Shown piece after piece: positions 62,721 to 64,000 of a stretch of 64,000 nucleotides of DNA. Source of the stretch: Candidatus Palauibacter rhopaloidicola (GTDB lineage Bacteria > Gemmatimonadota > Gemmatimonadetes > Palauibacterales > Palauibacteraceae). The translations under genes and the position numbers were made by a program. The notes beneath the pieces are model-generated. The model saw only the letters and a program-made list of their open reading frames with translations. It did not search any database and was not told where the DNA came from. Numbering within the stretch: position 1 is the first letter of the stretch; each line of letters starts with the position of its first letter. Location of the stretch: the NCBI GenBank assembly GCA_026914155.1, contig JAPPGH010000050.1:1-64000 (forward strand), read 5' to 3'.

Positions 62721-63398
62721 CTAGTCGCCCGAAGCGAGTCTGCGCCGGGCTTTGCGATCCTTTCTGATCCGCTTCCGCGCGTCCCTCGCGCTCTCGCCCG
62801 GGTGTCGCTCGACGACGTCCACCCCTCCCATGCAGACGAGACCGCTGAGGCGGATGACGGGAGCGTCCGGGGCTGGCGGCGTGCCGGGTTCGGGCATGCT
62901 GACGCCCCCCATGAGCGCGATGCCTCCCCACTCGACGCGGACCCCCGGTGGGACGACGATGTCCACGCCTCCCATGAGCGCGAGGAGCCGGACCGAAACC
63001 GTCTCGGTCGCGAATGCCGCCTGCCTGAAGTCGAGATCCGTACCTCCCATGACGGTGACGGCGGTGAGCTGGCGCGGAGGAACCCAACTGCCCTTGCGCT
63101 CGGTCGCCCCCCAGATCGAGACGATGAGGTCGTGCTCCTGGACGGGTCGCGCCGGATCCACCGGCACGGAGGCGGCCGGCGAGGGCTCGGGTACCGCCGG
63201 GCGGGTTTCGCTTCGGAGGGCGGGGAGGTCTCGCTCGAGCGCGACGAGCTCCGCCCGGGTGCGCGCGGCGTACGCGATGTCCAGGCGGCGTTCCAGTTCG
63301 GTCGTATTCATGGCGTCGCGCGCGAAGTGCGCGCAGAGACGGTCCACCGTCGCCTGCCGCTCCTCCGGCGACAACGCCTTCTCTTGGCTGTCCGTCAT
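62721..63398 (-). CDS. DUF1707/LiaF-like protein
   Basis: Protein of 225 residues. The N-terminal part (LCAHFARDAMNTTELERRLDIAYAART) matches the short helical DUF1707 domain, where the family starts a regulator-like unit. The C-terminal part has repeated MGGxD/MGGxS strands (VTVMGGTDLDF, LLALMGGVDIVVPPGV, IALMGGVSMP, LVCMGGVDVV) like the LiaF/cell-wall-active-antibiotics-response domain. There is no membrane segment, unlike LiaF itself. The end is basic (RKRIRKDRKARRRL). It is probably a cell-envelope sensing or scaffold protein, but the function is inferred. Confidence 0.78.
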   Translation of the reverse strand: MTDSQEKALSPEERQATVDRLCAHFARDAMNTTELERRLDIAYAARTRAELVALERDLPALRSETRPAVPEPSPAASVPVDPARPVQEHDLIVSIWGATERKGSWVPPRQLTAVTVMGGTDLDFRQAAFATETVSVRLLALMGGVDIVVPPGVRVEWGGIALMGGVSMPEPGTPPAPDAPVIRLSGLVCMGGVDVVERHPGESARDARKRIRKDRKARRRLASGD

Positions 63399-63552
63399 CT
63401 CCTCCTCGCCGTCTGGCCGGCCTGATTCTCACGCAAGGTGGCGGGGCTAGCAAGGCAAAAAAACTTGCCGCACGGGCGAGCGCACGGCATCATGGCGCAC
63501 AGCAGGTGTTTTTCGTGCCCTGTCCGTGAACCCTTTGGAAGGAGGTGATCTA

Positions 63553-63618
63553 GTGTCTGCAGGATGTAGAACCGGGTCTGACTCGGCACGGGCAAGCGAT
63601 CGCCTCGAGGCAGCGTAA
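63553..63618 (+). CDS. Small ORF with near-ideal ribosome site (21 codons)
   Basis: GTG 63553 lies 7 bases after AAGGAGG, an unusually strong and well-spaced ribosome site. The ORF ends at TAA 63616-63618 and reads, in part, MSAGCRTGSDSARAS. It is basic and Ser/Ala-rich, with no Lys codons, so it is not a classical lysine-attenuation leader peptide. Its last codons form one arm of a possible helix in the RNA. It may be a leader peptide, a small protein or chance. Confidence 0.4.
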   Translation: MSAGCRTGSDSARASDRLEAA

Positions 63619-63714
63619 CCGGTCCTGAACCGGTGGCGCTCGAGACATGCGCCGACCTGAAAGCTGCGGTGCCTCGCCGGCGTCGCGTCGAGTCAGGTTT
63701 CGGTTGAGACAAGA

Positions 63715-63753
63715 GCCGGCCGCGGGTTTCACGCTCGCGGCCGGCTTCCTTTT
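63715..63753 (+). terminator. Rho-independent terminator immediately upstream of dapF
   Basis: A perfect 10-bp hairpin: GCCGGCCGCG (63715-63724) with its complement at 63736-63745 and an 11-base loop, followed by TTCCTTTT. It ends 20 bases before the dapF ATG, so it either ends the small upstream transcript or regulates dapF by attenuation. Confidence 0.85.
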
Positions 63754-63773
63754 CATCCCCCTCTGCTCTGAAG

Positions 63774-64000
63774 ATGTCGTTATTCAGCAAATACACCGGA
63801 GCCGGCAACGACTTCGTGATCGTGCGCGGCGAAGAACTGGGGCTCCGGGATGCGGGGGCCCTGGCGGCCGCGCTGTGCCCCCGCGCGACGGGCGTCGGCG
63901 TGGACGGGTTGATCACGGTCCGCAGCCTGAGCGAGGAGGTCGTCCGCCTCCGGTTCTTCAATCGCGACGGCTCCGAGTTTTCCACCTGCGGGAACGGCTC
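63774..64000 (+). CDS. dapF: Diaminopimelate epimerase (partial, runs off right edge)
   Basis: Converts LL- to meso-diaminopimelate for lysine and peptidoglycan synthesis. About 75 residues are visible from ATG 63774. KYTGAGNDFVIV is the family N-terminal signature, and RFFNRDGSEFSTCGNG contains the first catalytic Cys. The gene continues past base 64000, and about 200 residues are missing. AAG and a weak GAAG lie just before the ATG. The strong terminator ending 20 bases upstream makes expression of this essential gene conditional on read-through or on a promoter inside the gap. Confidence 0.92.
   Translation, partial: MSLFSKYTGAGNDFVIVRGEELGLRDAGALAAALCPRATGVGVDGLITVRSLSEEVVRLRFFNRDGSEFSTCGNG

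Follow-up and report, generated by a model that had tools for sequence, protein, structure and literature searches.

The window, a stretch of 64,000 nucleotides from Candidatus Palauibacter rhopaloidicola (contig JAPPGH010000050.1), carries near its end a compact series of elements on the + strand, followed by dapF. At 63539-63550 (+) lies AAGGAGGTGATC, 12 contiguous bases complementary to the 3′ tail of 16S rRNA, which has the sequence ...GGCTGGATCACCTCCTTTCTAGGG in each of the 12 tails examined, including that on a fragment of the organism's own genome (L164; G000:C46). With two G-U pairs the match extends to 17 positions (63537-63553), which constitute an extended Shine-Dalgarno (SD) sequence; the related loci L014, L017 and L020 carry AAAGGAGGTGATCCAG, in which 16 bases are exactly complementary to the tail. 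The 12-mer was found once in the window and in none of 100 shuffles, and it has two occurrences in the 4.1 Mb genome: the one described here and one antisense to the 16S 3′ end. Upstream of it, a conserved 5′ UTR box, GTGCCC, occupies 63515-63520, and its GCC core is invariant in 47 of 47 sequences. Downstream, a short ORF of 21 codons (63553-63618; GTG start, MSAGCRTGSDSARASDRLEAA, stop TAA) contains no Lys codon. An intrinsic terminator (63713-63753), comprised of a 15-bp stem at 63713-63747 and the T-rich tail CCTTTTCATC, ends 20 bases before dapF (63774-64000, ATG at 63774), which was assigned from its ORF and homologues and lies outside the RNA; among 16 family sequences, two-sided changes were observed in 7 of 14 pairs of the terminator stem. 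The fold calculated for 63539-63756 has an energy of -112 kcal/mol (z = -4.57), and none of 200 shuffles was equally stable. A preliminary description of this DNA had pointed out the 12 complementary bases, the GTG ORF, its lack of Lys codons and the terminator before dapF, all of which were found in place.

BLAST with 63400-63800 produced matches in 20 of 40 genomes, the organism's own included, and the exact pattern AGGAGGTGATCNAGTGTC was present in 13 of 249 genomes of the phylum, its reversed control being present in none among the matches listed. A covariance model of the 5′ block, built from 15 family sequences (R1), was run on 35 family genomes, of which 27 matched at E <= 1, and on 298 phylum genomes, of which 99 matched at E <= 0.01; among these 99, 80 are not of the window's family. 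Forty of these 80 were taken for locus comparison, and all 40 loci have GGAGGTG in the SD sequence, an ORF starting with GTG or TTG, and GGGCA...GATCGCC, exact or slightly altered. A second covariance model, made from 47 sequences (R2), matched 219 of 395 Gemmatimonadota genomes, belonging to 86 of 138 genera and including 170 of the 285 genomes of high quality; by our own count the E-value was 1e-5 or worse in 16 of the 219. The match was single in 216 genomes, and G237, G359 and G380 have two each. As 176 of the 395 genomes gave no R2 match, the RNA is either not universal in the phylum or has forms that escaped detection. The preliminary description had proposed that covariance models be used to look for the helices and the ORF in relatives; rather than being absent there, both are conserved well beyond the genus, and its view that the RNA is structured and of regulatory appearance, with a short ORF and a terminator, is supported.

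The short ORF was compared over 60 sequences, in which TTG (37) and GTG (23) serve as start codons. (The genus-g5 loci L189-L192 were missed by the search pattern and are absent from every ORF and helix count; L018 and L184 are one locus, held in the set as L184.) The distance from the start codon to a conserved GGGCA is 31, 34 or 37 nt in nearly all sequences, and all three lengths preserve the frame. Start and GGGCA share a frame in 58 of 59 automatically scored sequences, one of which (L200) was measured to an upstream GGGCA, and the exception, L213, contains an N. Between the two points frame 0 is free of stops in 60 of 60 sequences, while the other two frames have stops in 11 and 54 of them. 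The first frame-0 stop lies exactly 26 nt past GGGCA in 52 of the 60, whereas first stops in the other frames scatter with a standard deviation above 200. The triplets at this place are TAA (21), TGA (20) and TAG (11), and three different triplets at one position are what would be expected if termination, and not the RNA sequence, was under selection. These comparisons support well the conservation of translation. The peptide presents a different picture. In the 34-nt class the third codon position has a variability of 0.86 bits, against 1.08 and 1.06 for the others. With the third position no more variable than the rest, selection on the peptide is not in evidence, and the argument for translation must therefore rest on the frame. 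The residues RASDR occur near the C-terminus in 45 of 60 sequences, encoded by codons that overlap GGGCA and the internal anti-SD sequence described below and that hardly vary at any position, and the first half of the peptide differs widely between families. The ORF thus appears to be conserved as a reading frame, with a peptide that, RASDR apart, is not evidently conserved.

The SD core of the window (63542-63550) can pair with the ORF itself, through an internal anti-SD sequence at 63598-63606 (GATCGCCTC) that resembles the 16S tail (GATCACCTC); the anti-SD consensus, GATCGCC[TC], is a near copy of that tail. The nine pairs of this helix (helix A) are present in 16 of 16 family sequences, and its 7-pair core is paired in 99.7% of cells across 47 phylum sequences. 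A two-sided change was found at a single pair in one clade (L196, L198 and L200), where an A to G change in the SD sequence accompanies U to C in the anti-SD sequence; one such pair was also reached by 87 of 500 shuffles, and a control slid by -3 gave 1 pair and 4 cells. As helix A hardly varies and controls reach the same value, covariation proves little there, and the SD side would in any case be fixed by 16S rRNA. Next to helix A, the start codon and codon 2 (63554-63558) pair with GGGCA (63590-63594) in helix S, which accounts for 98.8% of cells in 16 sequences and 97.0% in 47, with no two-sided change. A small hairpin within the ORF (hairpin C, 63572-63577 with 63581-63586) has two-sided changes in 2 of 6 pairs among the 16 family sequences. 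A further pairing was noticed between GCCC of the 5′ UTR box (63517-63520) and GGGC of the ORF (63590-63593), with standard pairs in 47, 47, 47 and 45 of 47 sequences and no two-sided change or covariation among them; the same GGGC also pairs with the start codon, and the 5′ UTR GCCC is a third possible partner.

In a long-range helix (helix B), the bases preceding GGGCA, together with GCGA, pair with a 3′ arm located ~40-130 nt downstream. In the window its 5′ side consists of B1 (63577-63587) and B2 (63596-63604), the second of which enters the anti-SD sequence, and its 3′ side is at 63679-63697 (GGCGTCGC / GTCGAGTCAGG). In alignment A6, which holds the 47 unique rows of the 60 and retains seven with fewer than 9 of 12 B1 pairs, 88.7% of cells are paired, a share inflated by the selection of 3′ arms for pairing beside a CGC/CGT anchor. 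Two-sided changes were counted in 122 cells. Shuffles gave 53.3 +/- 7.4, none of 500 reaching the observed value, and slid controls gave no more than 30. The two-sided changes affect 13 of 16 pairs, a number less telling than the cell count because the shuffles have 9.1 such pairs on average and the slid controls up to 10. A search made independently of the anchor gave a best score of 14.55 out of 16, against 11.30 in shuffled flanks, and was significant at p < 0.05 in 49 of 60 sequences. Within the family, 16 rows have 19 pairs and 98.7% of cells paired, with only one two-sided pair. (A further alignment, A7, omits the distant rows L204, L213 and L219 and near-identical family rows.) Covariation therefore supports helix B strongly, and far better than helix A. 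In 43 of 47 rows, 5 or 6 of the 7 anti-SD bases find a partner among the nine bases that precede the B1 arm; the mean duplex energy is -11.4 kcal/mol, versus -7.9 kcal/mol for shuffled arms. As the 3′ arm of B2 pairs with most of the anti-SD sequence, helices A and B compete for it. The competing helices noted in the preliminary description were found in place, in line with its proposal that an arm in the final codons of the ORF has competing partners: 63598-63606 can pair with the SD sequence or, in part, with the 3′ arm at 63679-63697.

Folding during transcript growth was modelled in silico for a hand-picked 25 of the 60 sequences. The mean probability of SD:anti-SD pairing was 0.74 when the transcript ended at the anti-SD sequence, 0.63 before the 3′ arm and 0.31 after it, and the SD sequence was unpaired with mean values of 0.13, 0.14 and 0.32 at the same three stages. 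The probability was only 0.05 from the start in the window sequence itself and was likewise low in L017 (0.18) and L231 (0.23); it remained above 0.7 after the 3′ arm in six of the 25 (L015, L019, L183, L201, L206 and L208).

In 54 of 60 sequences the region beyond the 3′ arm holds a hairpin with 12 or more stem pairs and a T-rich tail; ten shuffles gave a mean of 1.7 and a maximum of 4. This strict count was used, as a looser rule finds a terminator in 55 of 60 sequences but also in 41.5 of 60 shuffled ones on average. At the other end, TTGCCG-N17-CATCAT (63465-63493), whose hexamers are largely kept in the genus loci, is tentatively proposed as the promoter from this within-genus conservation; a strict sigma-70 scan of 63390-63780 returned no promoter. 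The proposed promoter is overlapped by a terminator-like hairpin on the - strand (63489-63466), the stem of which is seemingly not kept in L006 and L007. An independent small RNA was among the options of the preliminary description, and the terminator and the varied neighbours of the RNA agree with it; the RNA would then be transcribed as a unit of its own.

To our knowledge, small mRNAs with an extended SD sequence have previously been described in Alphaproteobacteria alone. Two of them, rreB and rreR, reportedly have at least 16 nt of complementarity to the 16S 3′ end before a short conserved ORF, the GTG start of which is said to follow directly after the SD sequence. The rreB transcript reportedly sediments with 30S subunits and gains stability when its start codon is lost. 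Transcription independent of the neighbours, with a promoter and a terminator belonging to the RNA, is likewise characteristic of this kind. The RNA described here resembles them in its nearly full complement of the 16S tail, the length of its ORF and its terminator; a GTG start right after the SD sequence was found in the window as well, and in the window's family it is followed by Ser-2. It differs in belonging to another phylum, in using TTG as the start in 37 of 60 sequences, in its peptide (compared by eye), and in the SD sequence of the window, which forms 12 contiguous Watson-Crick pairs, not 16-17. The Gemmatimonadota RNA also differs in having the ORF-internal anti-SD GATCGCC and the covarying long-range helix. 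Among alphaproteobacterial loci, ORFs of 14 codons in Bradyrhizobium and 18 codons in Rhodobacterales were found, fitting rreB and rreR, of which the 14-aa Bradyrhizobium and 18-aa Dinoroseobacter peptides discussed in the literature are presumably the products. The rreB and rreR study (Hahn et al. 2017, RNA Biol 14:1353, doi 10.1080/15476286.2016.1256534) is cited in PMC7298713 and PMC7217052. Titles among the best matches in the Gemmatimonadota literature on small RNAs, SD sequences and leader peptides indicated nothing on the RNA, and the accessible part of PMC4117421 contains nothing on it.

Known riboswitches and leaders were considered as candidates and set aside, as Rfam gave only sub-threshold matches in the region of the window. 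The preliminary description had recognised no known leader or riboswitch, a statement that can be amended by naming the closest kind: rreB/rreR, with Rfam CC2171. The CC2171 model (RF01867), matched in place and over its full length, scores 25.5 bits in the window (E 0.0046), below its gathering score of 75. Of 20 distant loci, 7 matched the full model at the position of the RNA with sub-threshold scores of 24.9-32 bits, and 13 gave nothing at E <= 0.5; in 4 of 8 alphaproteobacterial loci tested the model scores 79.7-88.5. Over 16 alphaproteobacterial, gammaproteobacterial and Gemmatimonadota loci, the only Rfam matches at the gathering cut-off were CC2171 (4 loci) and tRNA (3). The 5′ block AAGGAGGUGAUCnAGUGUCU is common to the Caulobacter sRNA family and the RNA of the window, but with at most 32 bits against a cut-off of 75 the window and the distant loci scored are no formal members of CC2171. 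They may be regarded, by analogy, as a variant that works like the extended-SD small mRNAs.

The pattern AGGAGGTGATCYAGTGTCT retrieved at least 120 stretches in genome contigs. Among the matches listed (80 titles), nearly all are alphaproteobacterial, three are gammaproteobacterial (L059, L084 and L090), two are labelled 'Proteobacteria' (L034 and L041), and one, L098, is a Gemmatimonadetes record with the same RNA. A compact version with the same 5′ block and a terminator-like hairpin within ~60 nt was seen in SAR92 (L059:932-950, -), where two tRNA genes adjoin it, and in Cellvibrionales (L084:22-40, +). The record of a Gammaproteobacteria bacterium (L090:4364-4382, -) has an rreR-like ORF (VSIEILEKGEATLGRAET), possibly transferred or misassigned. 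The pattern also occurs on 24 IMG/VR contigs (L241-L264), which represent phage DNA or host flanks. In alphaproteobacteria the strongest complement of the SD sequence is often at one conserved place, either within the ORF (CUGGAUC..GCCUC) or past its end (CUGGC[CU]CAUCUCCUU); both sequences resemble the 16S tail, and their significance in single sequences is modest. After removal of too-short sequences and of those identical in the first 80 bases, and with groups assigned from the first residues (the 14-codon 'VSH' rows L091 and L140 being placed as CC2171-like, of which L140 looks like rreB), an internal anti-SD was significant by duplex energy (p < 0.05) in 33 of 71 CC2171-like, 14 of 21 rreR, 4 of 13 Gemmatimonadota, 2 of 14 rreB and 0 of 8 other sequences, and the long-range helix (p < 0.05) in 28 of 71 CC2171-like, 2 of 14 rreB, 2 of 21 rreR and 2 of 8 other alpha- and gammaproteobacterial sequences. 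This suggests the long-range helix for some of the CC2171-like group; for rreB and rreR it does not. R1 gave 7 matches at E <= 1 on 20 alpha/gamma loci, and R2 gave 19 on 25 loci, the best at 23.8 bits.

The preliminary description had placed the RNA in a layout of translation-dependent attenuation before dapF, and a dapF leader, whether a translation-dependent attenuator or a riboswitch governing read-through into that gene, was considered. Leader-peptide attenuators such as trpL have a short ORF overlapping competing helices, then a terminator, and in this the RNA of the window is like them; the terminator stands 20 bases upstream of dapF, and dapF is the next gene in 15 of 15 genus loci. 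Beyond the genus, however, dapF was found beside the RNA in none of 4 sister-genus loci (flanks up to ~1.5 kb) and none of 40 distant loci (within ~1 kb). At those 40, a simple ORF rule called the next gene on the + strand in 16, on the - strand in 17 and not at all in 7, so that among the 33 loci with a gene called, 17 have it on the opposite strand. The RNA differs from trpL-like attenuators in having no constant gene behind it and no diagnostic codons (the ORF is devoid of Lys codons), and its terminator is outside the competing helices: the window's stem at 63713-63747 has no base in common with helix A or B, so there is no choice between terminator and antiterminator. The ORF is conserved in relatives, but its adjacency to dapF was seen in the genus only, and the attenuator reading was rejected; that the RNA is a dapF leader is highly improbable. 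Other neighbours are also shared: in several families (L196, L198, L200, L229, L014, L015, L016 and L020), as in the window, the opposite strand upstream carries ORFs that look gcvH-like by eye, and the downstream ORFs of L206, L225, L228 and L229 are mutually alike (start ...PPLTxLTEEEQMFRDTVR...), a neighbour observed only in these four.

Two further readings concern what the RNA does once made. It could act in trans, binding 16S tails or 30S subunits and so lowering or storing initiation capacity, with an incidental ORF. Such a role fits the complementarity to the 16S tail, which is perfect or nearly so and recurs in the genome only opposite the 16S end, as it would the reported sedimentation of rreB with 30S subunits; the conserved start, frame and stop position would be unexpected if the ORF were irrelevant, and this reading is considered unlikely. 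Alternatively, the locus could be a gene for a functional peptide of 19-22 residues with a strong ribosome site, as a small protein gene was also among the options first listed. The conserved frame and stop position, and the recurrence of RASDR, speak for it. The signs of selection on the peptide that it would predict were not seen, given the behaviour of third codon positions, the overlap of the RASDR codons with GGGCA and the anti-SD sequence, and the divergent first half; moreover, the putative rreB and rreR peptides (14 and 18 aa) are described as unstructured in the accessible text of PMC7217052. A functional peptide is accordingly given little credence, less than a trans-acting RNA. It would be translation that matters, rather than its product.

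The RNA is very likely a translated, stand-alone small mRNA. A fuller account, in which it is a small mRNA of ~250 nt of the extended-SD kind with a ribosome-sensitive SD/anti-SD switch, is considered probable, and for the switch taken by itself the chances are judged to be about even. The SD sequence can pair with almost the whole single-stranded 16S 3′ tail. The anti-SD sequence in the ORF can pair with the same SD sequence while GGGCA pairs with the start codon, giving a closed hairpin, and this hairpin could form first during transcription. Once the 3′ arm has been made, the long-range helix would take up most of the anti-SD sequence, and the SD sequence could be freed for a 30S subunit, whose binding may be the trigger. 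A translating ribosome would have to melt both structures, and would stop at a fixed place 26 nt after GGGCA. A closed hairpin, an open form, a strong 16S match and an obligatory ribosome passage together fit a ribosome-sensitive switch.

Sensing of free 30S subunits by this switch is a more tentative idea, and is regarded as doubtful. The RNA might be a device that measures them by means of its 16S-tail complement and its own near copy of the tail, a proposal offered as speculation: 30S subunits would compete with the internal copy, the long-range helix would set the balance point, and the ORF would be retained solely to let a ribosome reopen the device and reset it. Such a reset function would explain why frame and stop place are conserved while the peptide is free. 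If the proposal is true, Alphaproteobacteria would carry related versions, with CUGGAUC..GCCUC in the ORF or CUGGC[CU]CAUCUCCUU after it.

Missed by present Rfam models at their cut-offs, the RNA is a candidate for a new Rfam family, and its competing helices supply specific paired mutations with which the proposed switch can be tested. As judged from these comparisons, the extended-SD design now appears in a second, distant phylum, with a covarying long-range helix and competing SD/anti-SD pairing, and the conservation of a frame with no sign of selection on its peptide suggests that the signal is the translation of the RNA.
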